From positions 1 to 38,808 of the forward strand of contig QMPP01000004.1 of assembly GCA_003650425.1 (NCBI GenBank): DNA of 38,808 nucleotides, read 5' to 3'. The translations under genes were made by a program, and so were the position numbers. The stretch is from Bacteroidota bacterium (lineage in GTDB: Bacteria > Bacteroidota > Bacteroidia > Bacteroidales > F082). The notes under the pieces were generated by a model, which saw nothing but the letters and a program-made list of their open reading frames with translations, did not search any database and had not been told where the DNA came from. Below, in pieces: positions 4,610-15,048 of the stretch (position 1 is its first letter; each line of letters begins with the position of its first letter).

Positions 4610-5107
4610 TTAGTTGCATTTAATTCCTGAAAACTCAATATCCAGCGCGTTCATCAACTGGCATTGTAAAAAAATAAAAGCTCTTTCCAGATTCAGAAGT
4701 GCGCTGTCTGATAACCCTTCCTGAAACTCCCATCGATATCCTTTGATGCTCAATAGCCTGGCCTGGGGTTTTTTGTCGAAAAGTTTTTGGCACAGGTGAA
4801 TGATGTAGGCCGGCGATACCGCGTGCATGGTGAACTCTACTTTTTGGTCGTTGGGTTCCACCTCGGTAAGCCTGAAGTTGGTCAAATCAGCTTCCTGCGA
4901 AGCATCAACGAAAATGACGAGGTCGTATCGCGACACCTTTTCAGCATCCTCAACATTGAGCTGATAGTTGCTGTCAATATCAATCTGGTATAGGTCGTGA
5001 GCCTTTTTCCACTCTTCTGCCATTTCGGTTATTTTGATTCCCATTCCGTCATCACGGCGTCCCGGATTTCCATAGCCGTAAATGAGAACTTTTTTTTCTC
5101 TATTCAT
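4610..5107 (-). CDS. hoxW: Hydrogenase maturation protease (HoxW/HycI type)
   Basis: This is the endopeptidase that trims the C-terminal extension of the [NiFe]-hydrogenase large subunit after nickel insertion. From ATG 5107 it has 165 residues. The diagnostic GYGNPGRRDDGMG is at 11-23. Asp20, Asp68 (VDAS) and His95 (MHAVSP) correspond to the nickel-sensing residues Glu16, Asp62 and His93 of HybD. A frame start at 5149 would overlap hoxH by 23 bases and add an unrelated basic leader, so 5107 (19 bases after hoxH) is preferred. It lies directly downstream of its presumed substrate gene, as expected for a dedicated protease. Confidence 0.88.
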   Translation of the reverse strand: MNREKKVLIYGYGNPGRRDDGMGIKITEMAEEWKKAHDLYQIDIDSNYQLNVEDAEKVSRYDLVIFVDASQEADLTNFRLTEVEPNDQKVEFTMHAVSPAYIIHLCQKLFDKKPQARLLSIKGYRWEFQEGLSDSALLNLERAFIFLQCQLMNALDIEFSGIKCN

Positions 5108-5126
5108 GTTGTTGCGATTATTTGCT

Positions 5127-6581
5127 TTATCCTTTAATCTTTTTATCAATTACTTCATCTTGTTCATTTACAAGGGTAACTTCCAGTGGCATTTGACCTA
5201 ACGCGTGCGTAGCGCAGCTGAGGCAGGGGTCGTACGCCCTGATGGCCACTTCAACGGCATTCATCATTGGTTCGGTAATTTCCTGCTGGCCGTTCATAAA
5301 GGCTTTGGCAGTGGCGTTTACCGCGCGGTTCATGGGCTCGTTGTTGTTGGTGGTTGACACAATCAGGTTGGCCATGGTGATAAGGTCGTTATCACCAACC
5401 TTGTAATGATGAAACAGTGTTCCGCGGGGTGCTTCAATCACACCAACACCTTCCTCCTGCCTTTTCCCTTTTACCACCAAATCGTTGCCTTGCAGATCAG
5501 GATCGTTAAGAAGGTCTCGCATTACTTCGGCAGCGTGCAGCACTTCTATTAAACGTGCCCAGTGATAGTGCAGGCTCATACCATTGGGCTTTCCTTTTGT
5601 ATAAGCCTTAAATTCTTCAAACTCTTTTTGTGCCAGCGGGGTAGGGATAAAATCACACACGTTTAACCTGGCAAGCGGGCCTACCCTGTACCATCCTTTT
5701 TCGCGTCCGTACTCTTTTAGGTAAGGAAACTTCATGTAGGTCCAGTTGCGAACTTCTTCTTCGATGTAATGGTTGTAGTCCTGATAATCGACATCATTTA
5801 AAATACGTCGACCTTCGTTATCGACTGCTCGCAACACACCATGATAAATATCCAGAGCACCGTCTTTACGTACCAAACTAAGGTGGTTCGATGGGAAGCT
5901 GGCGTAGTTGTCAACCATCTCTCGGTTGTTTTTGTGGTAGTGTTTAAAAAAGTCGAGGGCACCCAACGACCATTCTACCATCTTATCGGCACTCATGGGA
6001 TCGGGACCTTTCAACAGACTGTCGCGCTCATCAAGACTTAAATTTTTATTGACTCCTCCCGGTATAGCTCCGGTTCCATGAATTTTTTTGCCGGCGGTGG
6101 CGGCGATAACTTCCTGCCCATATTTTCGCATCATAATGCCCTGATAGGCCAATTCCCTGTTTTCCTGAGCCACGGCAATAATATTTCGCAGTTCGGGAGC
6201 AGCATCAATACCAAAAAGAAAATCGGGTGAGCTTAGGTGGAAAAAATGGAGTACATGCGACTGAAAAAATTGTCCGTAATGCATCAGCCTTCGTATTTTC
6301 TCGCCGGTTACGGTTAATCCCTCACCCGTTCCGGCTCCAACAATAACATCGAGGGCCTTGGCGGCGGCGAGATGATGGCTGACAGGGCAGATTCCGCAGA
6401 GGCGTTGAACCAGAACAGGGGCTTCCCAATAGGGCCTTCCCTGTATAAAACGCTCAAAGCCTCTGAATTCTACAATATGAAGCCGTGATTCGGTTACCCG
6501 TCCAAGGTCATCCAGTTTGATGGTAACTTTACCGTGGCCTTCTACCCGGGTTACCGGTTCGATGGTTATTTTTTTTGACAT
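5127..6581 (-). CDS. hoxH: NAD-reducing [NiFe]-hydrogenase large subunit HoxH
   Basis: HoxH carries the NiFe(CN)2CO active site where H2 is split or formed. It is 484 residues long, nearly the length known for the Cupriavidus soluble hydrogenase subunit. N-terminal nickel ligands Cys62 and Cys65 lie in RLCGICPVSHH and the C-terminal pair Cys453 and Cys456 in DPCLSCATH. The 25 residues after His459 (ALGQMPLEV...) are the peptide expected to be removed by HoxW. The L1/L2 signatures and the company of hoxF, hoxU and hoxY assign it to group 3d, the bidirectional NAD-linked, cytoplasmic hydrogenases. It sits 23 bases downstream of hoxY. I saw no sign of decay. Confidence 0.95.
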   Translation of the reverse strand: MSKKITIEPVTRVEGHGKVTIKLDDLGRVTESRLHIVEFRGFERFIQGRPYWEAPVLVQRLCGICPVSHHLAAAKALDVIVGAGTGEGLTVTGEKIRRLMHYGQFFQSHVLHFFHLSSPDFLFGIDAAPELRNIIAVAQENRELAYQGIMMRKYGQEVIAATAGKKIHGTGAIPGGVNKNLSLDERDSLLKGPDPMSADKMVEWSLGALDFFKHYHKNNREMVDNYASFPSNHLSLVRKDGALDIYHGVLRAVDNEGRRILNDVDYQDYNHYIEEEVRNWTYMKFPYLKEYGREKGWYRVGPLARLNVCDFIPTPLAQKEFEEFKAYTKGKPNGMSLHYHWARLIEVLHAAEVMRDLLNDPDLQGNDLVVKGKRQEEGVGVIEAPRGTLFHHYKVGDNDLITMANLIVSTTNNNEPMNRAVNATAKAFMNGQQEITEPMMNAVEVAIRAYDPCLSCATHALGQMPLEVTLVNEQDEVIDKKIKG

Positions 6582-6604
6582 GATATTATGTTTTTCAAAT
6601 GTTT

Positions 6605-7153
6605 TTAATCAAATTTTATGACTTCATAGGGTAAATCCATCTCTTTTCCCGTAACGATGGCCACCAGTGCATCCCAAATAAGGTCGGCGCGAGGGGCACA
6701 TCCCGGCAGGAAATAATCTATTTTTACCACTTCATGACAGGGAACAACTCTGTCTAACAACATCGGTATTTCTTCATCGTTAGGCAAAATCTTTTCTTTG
6801 TTGAGTTGTACCGTGGGGCCATTCAAATAAGCCTCTGCCAAACATTCGTCGATGGAAATACCGTTACGCATGGCCGGAAGCCCGCCCATGATAGCGCATT
6901 CGCCTAACGAAACAAGAATCTTGCAATTTTCACGGAAGTATCTTAAAACTTCAACGTTTTCGCTATTAGCGCAGCCCCCTTCAATAATACCAATATCAAC
7001 CGGTTTGGTAAATCTTTTAATATCATCAATGGGCGATTTGTTAAACTCTACCAATTCAATTAAATCTAGCAACCTTTCATCGATGTCAAGAAACGACATG
7101 TGGCATCCGAAACATCCGGCAAGAGAGGTGGTGGCTATTACTTTTTTTTCCAT
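6605..7153 (-). CDS. hoxY: NAD-reducing [NiFe]-hydrogenase small subunit HoxY
   Basis: HoxY carries the proximal [4Fe-4S] cluster that passes electrons between HoxH and the diaphorase. It has 182 residues. Cys14 and Cys17 (GCFGC), Cys86 (LGECA) and Cys152 (PGCAPRAD) supply the four expected ligands. There is no Tat signal and no C-terminal extension with further clusters, as is usual for cytoplasmic group 3d small subunits. It lies 17 bases after hoxU and 23 bases before hoxH. Confidence 0.93.
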   Translation of the reverse strand: MEKKVIATTSLAGCFGCHMSFLDIDERLLDLIELVEFNKSPIDDIKRFTKPVDIGIIEGGCANSENVEVLRYFRENCKILVSLGECAIMGGLPAMRNGISIDECLAEAYLNGPTVQLNKEKILPNDEEIPMLLDRVVPCHEVVKIDYFLPGCAPRADLIWDALVAIVTGKEMDLPYEVIKFD

Positions 7154-7170
7154 GATTTTCTTTTTTTCAG

Positions 7171-7866
7171 TTATTCTTCAATAGAACTGCCGATGGGTTT
7201 TTTATCAAACTTTCTGCTCCCGATGGGCTCTGAAAAGCCCTTTCCTTTGTATATAATGGAACCTACCGGACAATTCTCCATCGCTTGTTGTGCCAGCTTG
7301 TCGGAGATGGCCTGACCCATCTGTTTGTCTAGTACTACTTCCAGATGATTTCCCCGGCGGTTAAAGGCAAAATATCGTTTTCCCTCTTTATCTTTAATGG
7401 TTTTGATACAGCGTTTGCAAAGGATACATCTGTTTTGTTCCTTAATTATTTTTGGGCTGGAAGCATCCACCTCTTTGTTGGGAAACGAGTATGGAAACCT
7501 TGGAACCAGCATGCCCAGTCGGTAAGCCAGCGCCTGAAGTTCGCAGTTGCCACTTTTTTCGCAGGCCGGACAAAAGTGATTGCCACTTATAAAAAGCAGT
7601 TCCACAATGCTTTTCCTGTAGTCCTTAATTTCATCGTGATTATTATCGATGGTCATACCATCAGCTACCGGCGTTGAACAGGAGGTCATAAACCGGTTGT
7701 TAACTTTTACGGTACAAATACGGCATGAACCCTTGGGAGGAACACCCGGAAAGTGGCAAAGGGTTGGAATATAAACTCCGTTATCGGTGGCAGCTTCCAG
7801 AATGGTTTTTCCTTTGGCTGTGATAATTTCTTTGCCGTCGATTTTTATTTTAATTGTATCAGCCAT
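7171..7866 (-). CDS. hoxU: Hydrogenase diaphorase subunit HoxU
   Basis: HoxU is the iron-sulfur electron relay of the diaphorase module, homologous to the N-terminal part of NuoG. Its 231 residues are close to the known HoxU length. The [2Fe-2S] ligands are Cys37, Cys48, Cys51 and Cys63. The His-ligated [4Fe-4S] set is His97, Cys99, Cys102 and Cys108. A further [4Fe-4S] set is Cys147, Cys150, Cys153 and Cys199. All are intact. The start lies 1 base after the hoxF stop, so translation is probably coupled. Confidence 0.93.
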   Translation of the reverse strand: MADTIKIKIDGKEIITAKGKTILEAATDNGVYIPTLCHFPGVPPKGSCRICTVKVNNRFMTSCSTPVADGMTIDNNHDEIKDYRKSIVELLFISGNHFCPACEKSGNCELQALAYRLGMLVPRFPYSFPNKEVDASSPKIIKEQNRCILCKRCIKTIKDKEGKRYFAFNRRGNHLEVVLDKQMGQAISDKLAQQAMENCPVGSIIYKGKGFSEPIGSRKFDKKPIGSSIEE

Positions 7867-7867
7867 T

Positions 7868-9682
7868 TTAATTCAGATTTTTAGTTTCAAAAACAGGTTT
7901 GCGATTAACAAAATTGCACGACTCAACAACAGCTTTCTCCAAATTAAATCCCGTGTCAAACTCTTTGTCTTGCTGGATTAAATCTTCGTACAGCGACCTG
8001 AAATTGGAAAGGCTTGTTAAAATAGGGTTGCCGGCGGTTTGCCCCAGACCGCAACGACTAATTTTTAATAGTTTGCCCCATGAAACCAATTCTTCAAGAT
8101 CCTGTTTTACGCCGTGGCCATTCAATATTTTTAATAGTTTGTCTTTTAAAACCGTGGGCATGATGCGACAGGTAGAGCATGAGCCGCACGACTCTTCAAT
8201 AAAGAAATCCATAAAGTTAAGTACAACATCCCGGAGTAAATCGCGAGAATGGTTAAAAACAATCATCGAGCCACCGGTCGCCAAATCGGAATAACTGAGA
8301 GTTCTGTCAAATCCCTTTTTCGATAGTAGCATTCCCGAAGGGCCTCCCACCTGAATAGCCTGCACATCATAAGCCCCGGCCATGCTAAGTACATCGTTTA
8401 TGGTGGTTCCCCATTCTACTTCGTAGATGCCCGGGAAAAGACAATCGCCCGAGATGCTAAGAATTTTTGTTCCTGCCGAGTCGGAAGTCCCCATGCTGTC
8501 GAACCAGGCGGCTCCATTATTAATTATCTTCACCACGGAAGCGAGCGTTTCAACATTGTTTACAATGGTAGGGTAGCCCATATAACCTTTCTCAACAGGG
8601 AATGGCGGTTTGTCGCGTGGTTCACCCCGTTTACCTTCCATCGATTCTATAAGAGCCGATTCTTCTCCACAAATGTAGGCTCCTGCCCCCAACTGAATAC
8701 GAATATCAAAATTAAAGTGCTTGCAACCATTTATTTCATTCCCCAAAAGAGACTTCTTACGCATGTTGTCCAAAACATGGTTGAGATAGTTTAGCAGGTA
8801 CTTGTATTCATGGCGGAGGTACAAAACACCTATATCAGCACCGGTGGCAAAAGCGGCTGTTACCATGCCTTCAAAAACCAATTCGGGGAATTCGGTAAGT
8901 AAAACTCTGTCTTTAAAGGTGCCGGGTTCGCCCTCATCGGCATTGCAAATAATTACCCTGTGTTCGGCTTTGGTTAATCGGCCAAATTTCCATTTTAACC
9001 CGGTGGGGAAACCGGCTCCGCCACGCCCCCTGATGTTGGAGCCTTCTACGATGGTTATTATTTCTTCAGGCGACCGTTTACACAATTTGTTTTTGATAAC
9101 GTCAAAAGGTTTGTAATCGTTGGTTAGGATAGCACCTCTTTTCCTAATGTGGTTGTTTACCATCGAGTGAATCAAATCGTGGGCGTTGTTGCCGTCACCA
9201 AACGATTCGTAGGCTGCTTCCTCTAACGATTTACCCTCTTTTAAACCGGAAATTAGCTCTTTTACTCTGAAAGGGGTGAGTTGGGTAAAAGGGATGCCGT
9301 TAATAAGTGCTGCAGGTTCCTGGTCGTTCATTCCGATGCAGGAGGTGTGTTCGAGAAAGAATAACCCCTCTTCCGACGTTTCTCCAAAGGAAGTGTGGCA
9401 CGCCTCTTCAAAAGCCTCGGCAACCAATTGGCGTCCTGCCATCTCTGAGGTGATGCTGTTATTAAGATAAATTCTGTAACGAGCCTCTTTGCATGAAAAG
9501 AAATGATAAAAACTTGCTGTTTCGCATACTTCGGCTGTAGATAATTTTAACTTTTTGGATAGTTCGCTGCAGTCGTCGTGAGACAAATACCCTCGTTCGT
9601 TTTGGATATCCAGCAAAATATCCATCAGACGGGTTTTGTCGGTTTGATACCGCTTAACTATTTTATTTACCAGGTCTTGCAT
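7868..9682 (-). CDS. hoxF: Hydrogenase diaphorase subunit HoxF (NuoE-NuoF fusion)
   Basis: HoxF binds FMN and NAD(H) and exchanges electrons between NAD and the hydrogenase module. Its 604 residues comprise a NuoE-like domain (about 1-150) fused to a NuoF domain (about 185-560). Nucleotide-binding motifs are visible as RGRGGAGFPTGLKWKFG, CNADEGEPGTFKDR and GAGAYICGEESALIES. The [4Fe-4S] ligands are in ESCGSCSTCR plus SRCGLG. The NuoE-like part keeps only one of the four cysteines that bind [2Fe-2S] in NuoE (Cys115, in SCIGMNDQEP), so that cluster is probably absent. There is no separate hoxE, which fits the Cupriavidus-type two-subunit diaphorase. It is the first gene of the operon. Confidence 0.94.
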   Translation of the reverse strand: MQDLVNKIVKRYQTDKTRLMDILLDIQNERGYLSHDDCSELSKKLKLSTAEVCETASFYHFFSCKEARYRIYLNNSITSEMAGRQLVAEAFEEACHTSFGETSEEGLFFLEHTSCIGMNDQEPAALINGIPFTQLTPFRVKELISGLKEGKSLEEAAYESFGDGNNAHDLIHSMVNNHIRKRGAILTNDYKPFDVIKNKLCKRSPEEIITIVEGSNIRGRGGAGFPTGLKWKFGRLTKAEHRVIICNADEGEPGTFKDRVLLTEFPELVFEGMVTAAFATGADIGVLYLRHEYKYLLNYLNHVLDNMRKKSLLGNEINGCKHFNFDIRIQLGAGAYICGEESALIESMEGKRGEPRDKPPFPVEKGYMGYPTIVNNVETLASVVKIINNGAAWFDSMGTSDSAGTKILSISGDCLFPGIYEVEWGTTINDVLSMAGAYDVQAIQVGGPSGMLLSKKGFDRTLSYSDLATGGSMIVFNHSRDLLRDVVLNFMDFFIEESCGSCSTCRIMPTVLKDKLLKILNGHGVKQDLEELVSWGKLLKISRCGLGQTAGNPILTSLSNFRSLYEDLIQQDKEFDTGFNLEKAVVESCNFVNRKPVFETKNLN

Positions 9683-9737
9683 AACGTTGTGTTTTATTAA
9701 TAAAGAATCCCGCTTTCATTTGTTAAATAATTCACAG

Positions 9738-9745
9738 CAAATATA
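9738..9745 (-). promoter_or_regulatory. -7 box for the hox operon
   Basis: On the minus strand TATATTTG (9745 down to 9738) matches TAnnTTTG exactly, about 55 bases upstream of the hoxF start at 9682. I see no convincing -33 TTTG at the usual distance, so an activator may be involved. Confidence 0.45.
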
Positions 9746-9864
9746 AATCATATTATTGTTAAAGCATTAACAGGTATAAAATTTAGAAACAGTATAAATT
9801 GAATTAATTACCAGGGAATTTGAGAACAGGGTGGAACGGAACGACCTGTTTGTAACAAATGCAC

Positions 9865-9872
9865 TAATTTTG
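9865..9872 (+). promoter_or_regulatory. -7 box for the HypD-like gene
   Basis: TAATTTTG matches the TAnnTTTG consensus, 40 bases upstream of the ATG at 9913. The nearest TTTG (9849-9852) is too close (12 bases) to be a standard -33 element. This promoter and the hox promoter are back to back within 230 bases and could share control. Confidence 0.4.
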
Positions 9873-9912
9873 CTCCTGTTGGATTAGTGTATTTATAATA
9901 AATGGTTGACTT

Positions 9913-10818
9913 ATGAGCTTATTGGATGGTTATGTGGACAGGGATGTGGTAAAACACTTTGCCTCATTGATGGCGGATATGAAACCGGATAACATAAGGA
10001 TTGTTATTTTAGGTGAAGATTTGAGGAACAACATTGAAAAGTACGACTTGAAAGAGTGGTTGCCCGCCTGGGTAACAGTGGAGGATGAGCTATCGCTGGG
10101 AATGGAAGTGGAAGACAGGAGCTTTGTTGATAAACTGATTGCCTTTTCCGGGTTAGAAAAGTCAATTCTTACCATTAAGGAGAAGTATTTGGCGTTGCCA
10201 GGAACACGTTCGACTTTAAAAGAGGCGCTGGAAAAAGGGGTTGACATAAGGGTGGTAAATGATATTCTTGGTGCGATGGTGGTGGCCAGCCGAAAGAGAC
10301 GGAATAAAGTTGTTTACCCTATAGCAGGGTACGAAGACGAAGGGTTAATTACGGCTGCCGGACTGGCGAAAGCAAAAACAGTGGGATTTAGAAACTTTTT
10401 TGTGTATAACCGGCATGAGCAAACGAATGCTGTTGTAAAGGCTATAGCAGAGAAAGAGAAACAGGTTGATGGCTTTATTATTCCTTTAAAGGTGGGTTTA
10501 AATACCGGGACAGGTGCTTTTTCCTCCATTCCGCTAGTTTATAGAAAAGGAGTTGTTATTAGCGGATACGAACCGATGGAGATTATGCAGTCGGTCTGGA
10601 TGCTCCTCAACCAAAAAGCAGAGGCAACACCCGCTGTTGTTTTTCAACGAACAAAAGAGGCTTCTGATGAAATTGTTAATCGTGCAAGGTGGATGATGGA
10701 GGAGGTGTTTGAATCTTCGGATATCAACCTTGATGATTTTGGGTTGGTTAAAGGTGGCGGCTACAGGATAAGAGATAAATACCGGGCCTTTGATGTGCAA
10801 AATGCCGGGTTTGATTAA
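9913..10818 (+). CDS. Cysteine-free HypD-like protein, head-to-head with hox operon
   Basis: This 301-residue protein aligns along its length with HypD, the scaffold that together with HypC builds the Fe(CN)2CO unit of [NiFe]-hydrogenases. Matching blocks include LPGTRSTLKEALEKGVDIRVV (95-115), KVVYPIAGYEDEG (132-144), VDGFIIPLKVGLNTG (185-199), VVISGYEPMEIMQSVWMLL (214-232; canonical VVAGFEPLDILQ) and the GLVKGGGYRIR...FDV end (277-295). The catalytic motifs are gone: CGGHTH is replaced at 33-38 by LGEDLR, GPGCPVC at 57-63 by EDELSLG, and the cysteine-rich C-terminal [4Fe-4S] domain is absent. The protein has no cysteine at all, so it cannot act as a normal HypD. A role as HypC/HypE-binding scaffold, hydrogenase-specific accessory factor or regulator is inference from position. 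Confidence 0.85.
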   Translation: MSLLDGYVDRDVVKHFASLMADMKPDNIRIVILGEDLRNNIEKYDLKEWLPAWVTVEDELSLGMEVEDRSFVDKLIAFSGLEKSILTIKEKYLALPGTRSTLKEALEKGVDIRVVNDILGAMVVASRKRRNKVVYPIAGYEDEGLITAAGLAKAKTVGFRNFFVYNRHEQTNAVVKAIAEKEKQVDGFIIPLKVGLNTGTGAFSSIPLVYRKGVVISGYEPMEIMQSVWMLLNQKAEATPAVVFQRTKEASDEIVNRARWMMEEVFESSDINLDDFGLVKGGGYRIRDKYRAFDVQNAGFD

Positions 10819-10858
10819 AAACGAAGTCATAACCTAATAACTTTTAGCTGCTTCAGAG

Positions 10859-10878
10859 ACCAACGGTTGTTGGTTTTT
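10859..10878. terminator. Short hairpin terminator between convergent genes
   Basis: ACCAAC (10859-10864), loop GGTT, GTTGGT (10869-10874), then TTTT. It lies 40 bases past the stop of the HypD-like gene and 40 bases before the end of the convergent FG-GAP gene. The 6-bp stem is weak. Confidence 0.4.
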
Positions 10879-10917
10879 AGAATATATAAATCTAGGGGCA
10901 GTTCTTTTACCGGTTTA

Positions 10918-13791
10918 TTACTGAATAACCAATATCTTTCTTGCCACAATATGGTTGTCGTTGTTTTTTAATAGAACAGGATAAGTGCCGGAAGCCAAAG
11001 AAGAAACATCTATCTCAAACGCACTGCTTCTAATTAACAGCTGGCCGTATTGGCTGTATATTTCAGTGGTAATACCTTCGTGAGTTTGTGTAACCCTGAT
11101 TTTGTTGCCGGCCGGGTTAGGATAGACTACCAGACTGCTATCAGGAATTCTATCAATTGTAACCATCAGACTGCTTTGAGATTTACAGTGTGTCCGGGGG
11201 TCAAAAACATCAACGTTAATAGTGCCTGTTCCCGGTGTTTGCCATTGTATTTTCGCTTCCTGCTGATGTAGAGAAGGCATCCTGATACCATTGTCGATAT
11301 TCCAGGAATAATAGAGCGCATCACTTCCCGAAATAAGATAATCAGCGGTATCCATTTCATTTACTGTTTGCTCACCGTTAATAAAAAGGTTGCTGATAGT
11401 ATCGGGTTCAACGGTCAGGTGTAAATAAATAATGCTGTCGCCACCATAAACTGTTCGTAAGGTATCGCAATAAAGGCCGGTATTTTTTAGCCATCCTGAT
11501 AAAAAAAGAATGCTGTCGCCCTCACAGATATTATTGTACTGTTCTGTTTTACTATCTGTAAAATTTTCCAGTATATAATATTTTCCGTAAAAATCAGACC
11601 AGCTGAAAGCATCCTTGTCTCCGTCACCATCCATATCGGCAAAATAAGTATTTTCGGAAAGCCAATCCACTACATCCTCTATTCTCGGTTTAAAATTGCC
11701 GTCCCCATTATTAAGATATAGGATGTTGTTGTCATAATACCTGTCTTCGAGTATAATATCGGGCAAGCCATCTCTATTCCAATCTAAAATTCTGAGATTA
11801 TATGATACTGAAACATTTAAACTGTCATCTATTATCCGCAGCGAATCGAAGGTTAAATTTCCTCTGTTTTTAAACCATCCCATCGCTTTTTCATAATTAT
11901 TGGTTCCCGGATATTTGTAATAGGTAACAACGATATCACGCAGGCTGTCAGCGTTAAAATCCTGAACCTTTAAATTTACTACAGGCATATCCGTAAGCAA
12001 TTTTTTATCAAAATGGCTGCCGTTATAGTAGAAAATGACAGTTTTATTATCGGTAACCCGGCATATAATTTCGTTTACTCCATCGTTATTGAAGTCTTCA
12101 ACAAGAAAGGAGTTCATTATTGTCCGCGAGATTAATTGGGGATTATTAAATACACCACCTGTATTAAATATACAGTGAAGAAGATCGCCCGATGAATCAT
12201 TATCGTAATATTCAGAAACGATATCAGGCAGCCCGTTACCTGTAACGTCCTTTAAATCAAAATATGATGATGATTTAAATGTATTTGTTACAGGAGGTTG
12301 CTCGGTGAAATGGAAAGTGCCGTCGTTTTTAAACCAAAAAAGAGAGTCAGGATAAAAATAGTATCCAAGGATATCCTGATTTCCATCTCCGTCAATGTCT
12401 CCAAGTTTAAAATTCTGCAAATTTTTTCGGATAATTTGATTGGAGAGGTCAAATGAATAGTTCCCCCTGTTTTTTATAAAAAATATTCCCCTGTTGTTTG
12501 AAACAGTTGGATAGTATCCGTTTATCAGAATATCTGCTTGCAGCGGATTGTCAGTATATACCGGTATGGCTTTATGATTATATTTATTAGGTTGTAAAAC
12601 CTTGAGGAAGGTTTGGGTAAAGTTACCGTTACCGTCGTTAAACAAAACGCTATAGTCATGGCTTCCCGTAGAGGGAGATTTAATAAATATATCCAAGTTG
12701 CCGTCGTTATTAAAATCGATAATGGTGAATACATTTGCACCCGAATTGTTAGAGATTTTAACCGGGGCGCTAAATGTTTCATCCCCGTTATTTTTCATCC
12801 AAAAGAATGAACTGTTATTTAATCTGTTATACAACACATCAACCTTACCATCATTGTTAAAATCACCTAATAAGTAATTATCAATAGTGTCATGTATTAG
12901 CACCTCTTGTTGGCCGAAGGTGCCATCTTGAAGATTCTTAAATACAACAATAATACTTTCCTCGCCTCCCATACTATTCCTTTCAACAAAAAATATATCA
13001 TTGTATCCATCCTGGTTGTAGTCGGCAATTTGGACAAACTTTTTATCGAGATAATAATACAAGTCAAAAGATAATTTCAGACTCTTTGTGGTAAAGTGGC
13101 CGAGCCCGTCGCTTTTATACAAATAGAAGTCATAACCATTAGAAACAAAAATGTCTTGAAACCCGTCATTATTCAGGTCAGTAATAAAAAAATCACAATT
13201 GTATTCCCCCGTAATAACCTTTGGAACTTTCTGAGAAGGCATCTCCTGAAAAGTCCCATCCCCGAGATTTCTCATAATGATTATCTCCGGCACTTCTCCA
13301 TTCAATTTTGTAGACAACAGTATATCAGGAAAGTGACTGGAAAATATGTTAGCGACAGCAACTAAGACATTAATATTATTCTCTGTAAACGACTTTAGAA
13401 CATGTTCGGTAAATTGGCCCAGGCCATTATTTTGAAACAGAACAACTTGTTTTGCAATTATAACATGGTCGTGATATATTGTTTTTAGTGCAACGATATC
13501 ATTCGCGTTGTCACCGTTCATGTCCTCGGCGTTAACACAATTAAAATAAGCCGAGTTGTCAAGGTATGATAAAGTAGTAAGTTGATTATTTTGGTTTTTC
13601 AACCAATAAATCCCCTTGTTAGAACGAAATGATATAATATCAGGAAGATTGTCTCCATCCAGGTCTTTAAACACGTTACCGTAACCTAGTTGGCTTTGTA
13701 AAAAATATTTATTATCCCAGGCAAAGTTTAACTGTGCAAAAAGGGGATAAATGGTTAAAAGCAGGATAAAAGTCGTAAAATATTTTTTCAT
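10918..13791 (-). CDS. Secreted FG-GAP/VCBS repeat protein with T9SS sorting domain
   Basis: This 957-residue exported protein begins with a signal peptide (1-19, ending YPLFAQ). About twelve FG-GAP/VCBS-type repeats with calcium-binding loops follow, for example KDLDGDNLPDI, TDLNNDGFQDI, GDFNNDGKVDV, GDIDGDGNQDI and ADMDGDGDKDA, consistent with one or more beta-propellers up to about residue 750. A PKD-like or Ig-like stretch precedes the C-terminus. The last 70 residues or so (VVYPNPAGNKIRV ... SSLASGTYPVLL ... RKILVIQ) form a T9SS type A sorting domain, so the protein is secreted or surface-anchored through the Por system. Binding target and function are unknown. It separates the intact HypD-like gene from the relic of a second copy. 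Confidence 0.92.
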   Translation of the reverse strand: MKKYFTTFILLLTIYPLFAQLNFAWDNKYFLQSQLGYGNVFKDLDGDNLPDIISFRSNKGIYWLKNQNNQLTTLSYLDNSAYFNCVNAEDMNGDNANDIVALKTIYHDHVIIAKQVVLFQNNGLGQFTEHVLKSFTENNINVLVAVANIFSSHFPDILLSTKLNGEVPEIIIMRNLGDGTFQEMPSQKVPKVITGEYNCDFFITDLNNDGFQDIFVSNGYDFYLYKSDGLGHFTTKSLKLSFDLYYYLDKKFVQIADYNQDGYNDIFFVERNSMGGEESIIVVFKNLQDGTFGQQEVLIHDTIDNYLLGDFNNDGKVDVLYNRLNNSSFFWMKNNGDETFSAPVKISNNSGANVFTIIDFNNDGNLDIFIKSPSTGSHDYSVLFNDGNGNFTQTFLKVLQPNKYNHKAIPVYTDNPLQADILINGYYPTVSNNRGIFFIKNRGNYSFDLSNQIIRKNLQNFKLGDIDGDGNQDILGYYFYPDSLFWFKNDGTFHFTEQPPVTNTFKSSSYFDLKDVTGNGLPDIVSEYYDNDSSGDLLHCIFNTGGVFNNPQLISRTIMNSFLVEDFNNDGVNEIICRVTDNKTVIFYYNGSHFDKKLLTDMPVVNLKVQDFNADSLRDIVVTYYKYPGTNNYEKAMGWFKNRGNLTFDSLRIIDDSLNVSVSYNLRILDWNRDGLPDIILEDRYYDNNILYLNNGDGNFKPRIEDVVDWLSENTYFADMDGDGDKDAFSWSDFYGKYYILENFTDSKTEQYNNICEGDSILFLSGWLKNTGLYCDTLRTVYGGDSIIYLHLTVEPDTISNLFINGEQTVNEMDTADYLISGSDALYYSWNIDNGIRMPSLHQQEAKIQWQTPGTGTINVDVFDPRTHCKSQSSLMVTIDRIPDSSLVVYPNPAGNKIRVTQTHEGITTEIYSQYGQLLIRSSAFEIDVSSLASGTYPVLLKNNDNHIVARKILVIQ

Positions 13792-13970
13792 TATGCAAAG
13801 GGTCTTCTGATATAATAAAGGTTAGAGTTATCGTTTAATAATTTTCACCTAAGATTTTCAATCATAATCTTGCAGTTTATTATGCTTGCTTGCATGGTGT
13901 AAATTTATAATTTATTTGTTTATAACTTTATTGCTGATGTATTTATTTTCATTGCTGCCCTTAAAAGAAC

Positions 13971-14063
13971 ATGGTTCGTTTTTATGGGTTTGTTATAGGC
14001 GGAGGTTTGCGGATAAGTGATAACCGTCGGACTTTTGATTTACAAAATGCAGAAATGGATTAA
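13971..14063 (+). pseudogene. Relic of the C-terminus of a second HypD-like gene
   Basis: In the frame ending TAA 14061-14063 the DNA reads GFVIGGGLRISDNRR followed by TFDLQNAEMD and stop. The intact protein at 9913-10818 ends GLVKGGGYRIRDKYR, AFDVQNAGFD and stop. The two match ungapped over the last 25 residues, with the stop at the same position. Upstream the frame hits a stop at 13962-13964 and similarity is lost. It has the same orientation as the intact copy, and the minus-strand FG-GAP gene lies between them. It is too short to encode a functional HypD-like domain. Confidence 0.85.
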
Positions 14064-14472
14064 TGGGAAGTTGCAAAACAATCTTCAACTGCTTCACGAA
14101 AAAGTGGTATCCTTTATATTGGGTAAGGTAGGTGCAACATGAAATAGGTTATCAAAGACTACTTGGGGTAACCGCGTTAAGGATTGTAGATCGCAGATTT
14201 AGAGGGAATAACGAATATCGAATACTGATTTTAGAAGTACCTCGTAAATCGTAAATCGCCTTCGGATATCGGATATAAAAATTAACGATGTACGAATTCG
14301 ATTTACGATTGTAAGACTATGCTGGAAAAAATTAATTGGAGAATGGAGATTTAAGATTAACGATTGCAGATTATAAACTCTGAATTAACCTTCTCTGCCT
14401 TTTTAATTTTATCTTTTTACTGAACTTGTTTAAAGTTGAAATGTTAACCAAAAACATCTGTTTTCAAAAAAA
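14064..14472. repeat. AT-rich intergenic stretch with degenerate ATTTACGA/ATATCGAA repeats
   Basis: No gene is visible. From about 14185 to 14375 the DNA is a patchwork of short related words: AACGAATATCGAATACTG, CGTAAATCGTAAATCG, CGGATATCGGATAT, CGATTTACGATTG and GATTTAAGATTAACGATTG. AATCGTAAATCG (14247-14258) is a perfect inverted repeat of CGATTTACGATT (14299-14310). From experience, similar word families occur between genes in other Bacteroidota genomes. Here they appear to be a decayed dispersed element next to the HypD relic. Confidence 0.55.
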
Positions 14473-15048
14473 CTAAAAATTGGTTTCATGAATTTCAAAA
14501 TAAGACTGTGGGTGCAAGCAGGCCGGGCACTTTTTAGGTGCTTTTTTACCTTCATGCAGATACCCGCAATTACGGCACTTCCAAACAATTGTCTCTTCAC
14601 GTTCGAATACTTTTCCGCTATCAAGATTTTCATACAGTTTCCGGTAACGCTCTTCGTGGGCTTTTTCCACGCGGGCAATCATTCTGAAAGCAATGGACAC
14701 CTCTTTAAACCCCTCTTTTTCGGCCACATCGGCAAATTCGGGATAAAGCTTCGTCCACTCTTCGTTTTCGCCATCAGCGGCAGCTTTTAAATTTTCGAGT
14801 GTAGTTCTGATAATTCCGGCCGGATAAGCAGCCGTAATTTCAACCATTCCCCCTTCCAGAAATTTGAAAAAACGTTTGGCATGCTCTTTTTCATTCAAAG
14901 CCGTTTCACCAAAAATAGCGGCAATTTGTTCGAGTCCATCCTTTTTAGCTTGCTTTGAAAAATAGTCGTAGCGCATACGAGCCTGCGACTCACCGGCAAA
15001 TGCTTTCAGCAAATTTTGCTCGGTTTGTGTTCCTTTAATTGATTTCAT
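14473..15048 (-). CDS. rbr: Rubrerythrin
   Basis: Rubrerythrin reduces hydrogen peroxide in the cytoplasm of anaerobes using a di-iron site fed by a rubredoxin-like iron. The 191-residue protein has the full domain order: ferritin-like di-iron bundle (1-145) with Glu20 ([11 protein letters not shown]), Glu53 and His56 (NEKEHAKRF), Glu97, Glu128 and His131 (VEKAHEERY), then a C-terminal rubredoxin-like site with Cys158, Cys161, Cys174 and Cys177. All ligands are present. It is a single gene with its own promoter. The palindrome upstream suggests peroxide- or iron-responsive control. Confidence 0.96.

Follow-up and report, generated by a model that had tools for sequence, protein, structure and literature searches.

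The short open reading frame that ends at position 14063 of the window, the 38,808-nucleotide stretch of a Bacteroidota genome analysed here, is very probably a remnant without function, the 3' end of a divergent second gene for a short HypD-like protein, of which an intact copy lies on the same strand beside a hydrogenase operon. By itself this relic matters little, being most likely a pseudogene scar of an ordinary kind; it marks a rearranged border of the hydrogenase locus and shows that the short HypD-like protein once existed in another, diverged version. Gene replacement or partial deletion leaves ordinary gene relics in bacteria. Such relics are likewise short, truncated at the 5' end, on the same strand as the living copy and beside a lineage-specific gene, and nothing about the present one is distinctive. 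Whether a displaced resident allele or a decayed tandem paralogue left it behind are two readings that we regard as about equally likely.

The window belongs to genome G000, an assembly of 311 contigs and 3.1 Mb with 2.89 % contamination. The hydrogenase operon (5127–9682, minus strand), with nickel-hydrogenase, 20-kD-subunit and NADH-oxidoreductase-like domains, diverges from the intact short HypD-like gene (9913–10818, plus strand), which encodes 301 amino acids without a single cysteine and matches the Pfam HypD family with E 1.3e-40. An FG-GAP repeat protein of 957 amino acids with a secretion-system C-terminal sorting domain is encoded on the minus strand at 10918–13791 (Pfam FG-GAP_3 and Por_Secre_tail) and sits between the two matching pieces, namely the 3' end of the intact gene at 10737–10818, delimited by DNA and codon alignments, and the relic at 13982–14063, both on the plus strand. 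The relic lies in a 681 nt intergenic stretch without a called gene (13792–14472), and the right-hand border is formed by a rubrerythrin gene (14473–15048, minus strand, Pfam Rubrerythrin) that is 93 % identical in the related genome G002 and placed equally there. The G+C content is 0.40–0.49 in the hydrogenase operon (5000–9499) versus 0.32–0.36 over 11500–13999. Dispersed repeats of G000 lie 3' of the relic at 14206–14309, with DNA matches of 83–94 % on several G000 contigs. Within these post-relic repeats we also observe an inverted pair (14247–14271 and 14286–14310), and a further dispersed repeat at 14414–14442 has matches on several other G000 contigs. Direct repeats bracketing the FG-GAP gene as a mark of insertion were not prominent among the 20 repeat families listed, which come without a chance level, and no RNA family was found in 9600–14700 at E ≤ 0.1.

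The frame runs from an ATG at 13971 to the TAA at 14061–14063 and translates as MVRFYGFVIGGGLRISDNRRTFDLQNAEMD. In a tblastn comparison its residues 5–30 align without a gap to residues 276–301 of the intact protein, 15 of the 26 being identical (57.7 %), and the GGG-R and FDxQNA motifs are both present, just as the sequence-only reading had described for the codons preceding the stop. The nucleotide alignment of the intact tail with the relic bears this out, with 59 of 84 positions identical across 28 codons including the stop. In the DNA alignment homology starts abruptly at 13982 in the relic and at 10737 in the intact gene, and it is not supported for the first 11 bases of the frame including the ATG; of the span 13971–14063 proposed earlier, the end at 14063 stands while the start has to be given up. 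A six-frame local comparison of the 681 nt intergenic stretch with the whole 301-amino-acid protein gave a best score of 76, a value reached by none of 1000 dinucleotide-preserving shuffles (mean 32.0, standard deviation 3.6, maximum 53), so that the match is far above shuffled controls. Sixty shuffles of the whole window minus the intact gene reached at most 51, and with the relic masked the top real score left in the window is 54. A search of its own genome with the relic at E ≤ 10 returns, besides the relic itself, the intact tail alone (E 3.6e-4).

The relic ends as the short HypD-like proteins do, with a C-terminal F-D and a stop no more than ten residues on (FDLQNAEMD-stop), in agreement with the earlier proposal that a second HypD-like gene, of the kind ending directly behind the FD motif, left its 3' end here. 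The body of such a protein, about 300 residues with conserved blocks around residues 113–164, is missing, and the relic is a fragment rather than a member gene of the family. It keeps five of the seven invariant residues between V279 and D294, while K289 and Y290, both invariant in the four intact proteins, are replaced. On the 5' side of the relic the gene body left no significant trace, the protein score being matched in 54 of 500 shuffles and the DNA score in 36 of 300. The same holds for the cysteine-rich domain of HypD on its 3' side (56 of 500 as good) and for the C-terminal cysteine region 3' of the intact gene (433 of 500). Beyond the relic stop a further match of about 40 nt is possible and weak, an anchored extension of this quality occurring in 16 of 500 shuffles and an unanchored one in 143 of 1000. 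The stretch 13871–13939 also aligns weakly with the leader and start of the intact gene (49 of 1000 shuffles as good), for which the leaders of the relatives G003 and G002 gave no confirmation. Were this match real, the space separating the FG-GAP gene from the relic would contain a second leader, which would speak for a tandem copy shortened by an internal deletion.

Among the five sampled genomes of the genus, four carry the short form (G000, G001, G002 and G003) with 298–303 residues, the identity to the G000 protein being 69 % for G003 (JANTGU010000219.1, a Bacteroidales MAG that is only 77 % complete), 62 % for G002 and 52 % for G001. All four stop ahead of the canonical cysteine-rich region and end after FD as FDVQNAGFD (G000), FDAQNLF (G003), FDANLL (G002) and FDGTILNNFEQS (G001). 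The earlier statement that the short form is no recent truncation is therefore correct, because relatives hold this form, which is better evidence than the relic itself. The relic has in common with the proteins of G001–G003 the ending soon after the FD motif; it shares 5–9 of 19 core residues with them and 11 of 19 with the intact copy, but is unlike them in being reduced to the stop and the 26 codons before it and in its loss of the invariant lysine and tyrosine. The short form adjoins the hydrogenase operon in three of the genomes (G000, G002 and G003).

Gene order in these relatives differs from that in the window. G002 shows the order hydrogenase, HypD-like gene, a convergent gene for a cysteine-rich protein of 137 amino acids and rubrerythrin, and G003 the order HypD-like gene, 137-amino-acid gene and sufB; neither a second HypD-like gene nor the FG-GAP gene is present at this place in either genome. 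In G000 the 137-amino-acid gene lies on another contig beside sufB (identified as SufB by Pfam on the G000 copy). The border of the G000 locus is accordingly rearranged, because a gene found directly downstream in G002 and G003 is on another contig here. As neither the second copy nor the FG-GAP gene occurs in the readable relatives, the border between the HypD-like and rubrerythrin genes was rebuilt in one or more lineages, and an old tandem pair has no support from any relative. A second copy was seen in none of the three further genomes that carry the gene, a count from few genomes in which the downstream flank can be read in G002 and G003 only. G001 contributes just 448 nt of flank and the G004 contig ends within the neighbouring hydrogenase gene, both of which are uninformative on downstream order. 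Of the two refuting conditions attached to the sequence-only reading, the absence of a relative with a second copy applies within these few genomes, and a match no better than shuffled controls does not. The idea of a tandem array broken by insertion or replacement, put forward from the window itself, thus finds no backing in the relatives, where in G002 and G003 the 137-amino-acid gene comes next downstream. On contigs of other genus members that carry the 137-amino-acid gene, sufB, rubrerythrin or hydrogenase, the relic gave weak matches only.

Across the 172 other genomes of the family, with the five best first-look candidates per genome scored, nothing matched the FG-GAP gene at E ≤ 1e-60. 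With all candidates scored within the genus, the best match outside G000 has an E value of 3.1e-10 in the other four genomes, and one relative of 34 % identity is found in G000 itself on contig C29. As a side observation, the 137-amino-acid protein (L034:12309-12722, L001:1378-1791 and L053:3417-3839) has G000 and G003 copies that are 94–96 % identical to that of G002, and its gene has a different neighbourhood in each of the three genomes. It contains CxxC pairs and obtains a Pfam match under the cut-off only and none above it; going by the CxxC pairs, it would be a zinc ribbon protein.

The divergence of the relic from the intact tail amounts to 23 of 81 nt (28 %) with 11 residue changes, and the differences are distributed as 5, 5 and 13 over the three codon positions. 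The orthologues of G000 and G003 differ by 29.5 % at the nucleotide level (70.5 % identity) across 299 codons, and since the divergence of the relic is about as large, no long-kept paralogue is needed to explain it. We simulated 23 differences while varying the share made under coding constraint. At least 13 third-position differences arose in 0.7 % of runs with none constrained, 6.6 % with half and 31.5 % with all, and an open relic with at most 11 residue changes in 2.1 %, 10.0 % and 36.2 %, respectively. The half-constrained case corresponds to a copy without function from the outset next to one under selection, which accordingly yields the observed third-position excess in 6.6 % of simulations, and the favoured view is that the second copy worked for part of its divergence. 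Compared with the orthologues, the relic shows flatter patterns of 5/5/9 against G003 and 7/7/10 against G002, whereas the intact tails of G000 and G003 differ by 2/3/10, which speaks for some time without selection. Over the 19 core codons the relic agrees with the intact copy in 41 of 57 nt and 11 of 19 residues, and with G003 in 38 of 57 nt and 9 of 19 residues. The ending QNA-x-x-D-stop is common to the relic and the intact copy and absent in G001, G002 and G003. For placing the relic in a tree, 81 nt are too few.

That no second gene was ever present, the resemblance being due to chance or to an assembly artefact, is the least probable of the readings. A fragmented and slightly contaminated assembly would allow for an artefact, but the stretch following the relic holds repeats found elsewhere in G000 and the gene order on either side agrees with G002, while chance is at odds with a score that none of 1000 shuffles attained. 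Hardly more probable is a living small gene, in which the 30-codon frame would be translated and selected. The frame is indeed open, begins with an ATG at 13971 and differs from the intact tail with an excess at third positions, but a frame stays open by chance in 25–48 % of equal-sized decays (constrained share 0 to 0.5), and the otherwise invariant K289 and Y290 have changed. Moreover, a search of the other four genus genomes at E ≤ 10 returned only the tail of the G003 HypD-like protein (E 0.53) and one match in G004, the latter with 48 % identity in a 186-amino-acid frame (E 0.74) that concerns a glycine-isoleucine-rich stretch.

More weight has to be given to a tandem paralogue, whereby a duplication of the HypD-like gene in this lineage would have given a second copy that later lost all but its 3' end, either via arrival of the FG-GAP gene or by an internal deletion. 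This course of events has a probability just short of even. Both pieces lie close together on the same strand, have the same stop and the common ending QNA-x-x-D, and perhaps also share homology beyond the stop and in the leader, as judged from the 16 of 500 and 49 of 1000 shuffles mentioned above; the codon pattern of a copy dead from the start, moreover, does arise in simulation, if only in the 6.6 % of runs. On the other hand, the three relatives with the gene revealed a single copy each, a divergence the size of that between species requires either an old duplication or fast decay, and the leader match was not confirmed with the leaders of relatives. The sequence-only reading had taken the two pieces for a duplicated pair, a conclusion that does not follow as such, as a resident allele cut off by an incoming version of the locus gives the same picture. 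It is rather doubtful that the lineage once had two working, functionally diverged HypD-like proteins without the essential cysteines beside its hydrogenase operon; if true, a small gene family had arisen from a redox-dead HypD scaffold and then lost one of its members.

The reading that we tentatively place foremost, at slightly less than even odds, is a single replacement event in which DNA of a related strain orphaned the 3' end of the resident allele. The relic would then have been orphaned by a rearrangement of the locus in the G000 lineage through which the FG-GAP gene came to lie beside the intact copy. The incoming DNA would have brought a HypD-like gene of its own with the FG-GAP gene behind it and may have recombined by homology on the hydrogenase side, while the other junction would have fallen within the 3'-terminal part of the resident HypD-like gene, so that the final 26 codons of this allele stayed with their stop ahead of the resident rubrerythrin side. 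Both the event and its direction are inferred, and a donor with a HypD-like gene followed by the FG-GAP gene was not found among the genomes searched. One such step could account for the sharp 5' edge of the relic, the species-sized divergence and the private FG-GAP gene, all without an unseen paralogue. The match above shuffles, the third-position excess among the differences from the intact tail, the single copy in congeners, the rearranged border, an FG-GAP gene without a close match among the 172 other family genomes and the drop in G+C would all be consistent with replacement. Pointing the other way, the shared QNA-x-x-D-stop ending and a relic slightly nearer to the intact copy than to G003 would fit a duplication inside the lineage, and the flatter codon pattern against the orthologues as well as the weak leader match at 13871–13939 would likewise count against replacement.

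The intact family is more interesting than the relic, as it is a relative of HypD without the cysteines needed for HypD chemistry. Our copy matches positions 30–290 of the 351 in the Pfam profile PF01924 with 140 bits versus a cut-off of 25, whereas in the NCBIfam model TIGR00075 (hypD) it covers positions 35–304 of 372 with 137.4 bits and stays below the curated cut-off of 192.8. By these sequence models the protein is related to HypD, yet would not count as a HypD by NCBI's curated definition. HypD structures for comparison are 2z1d and 3vyr, and a profile search ties the intact protein to 2z1d with E 1.4e-16. The intact copy has no cysteine in the positions corresponding to E. coli C41, C69 and C72, reads GYEDE instead of the GFETT motif and stops before the C-terminal [4Fe-4S] region. 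Its G003 counterpart is free of cysteines as well, and the two cysteines of the G002 protein and the single one of G001 do not fall into the C41, C69 or C72 columns, one of those in G002 being one column off the third. According to PMC9900092, hydrogenase activity is abolished when C69, C72 or the cysteines of the cluster in HypD are exchanged. Judged by its sequence, the short HypD-like protein is presumably a redox-dead HypD derivative. At the level of titles and the beginnings of abstracts, the literature yielded no paper on a truncated or duplicated HypD without cysteines.

To place the short form, 173 genomes of the window's family were searched, 64 of which have a match at E ≤ 0.001. Apart from the genus, the family matches are mostly full-length open frames of at least 348 amino acids with 29–35 % identity in most rows; some shorter open frames occur in G015, G144, G039 and G005, the G005 reading (320 amino acids, 8 cysteines) being incomplete at its start. 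In a sample of 393 genomes from the larger group at order level, a search with the single protein recovered only G000 at E ≤ 1e-48, and a four-row profile recovered 98 genomes at E ≤ 1e-30, where, G000 aside, all listed open frames have at least 320 amino acids; both searches cover matches at or better than the stated E value only. A match was present in 107 plasmid records, all below 60 % identity, of which the eight listed are annotated hypD with 29–31 %. Scanned against genome contigs, the intact protein finds a single locus. At least three genomes of the genus also carry a full hypD elsewhere. In a quick tree, the four short forms cluster with SH-aLRT 100 and sit, on a branch as long as 7.2 changes per column, among the full HypDs of the family, while the full hypD of G000, G001 and G002, on which the tree was rooted, stand apart from the other family HypDs; the placing is unsure given the long branches. 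As a further observation, the full hypD genes of G000, G002 and G001 (L002, L055 and L056) show 23–24 % identity to the short form, versus about 29–35 % for most hypD of the family, which looks as if the resident hypD of these genomes had turned into the short form and had then been replaced.
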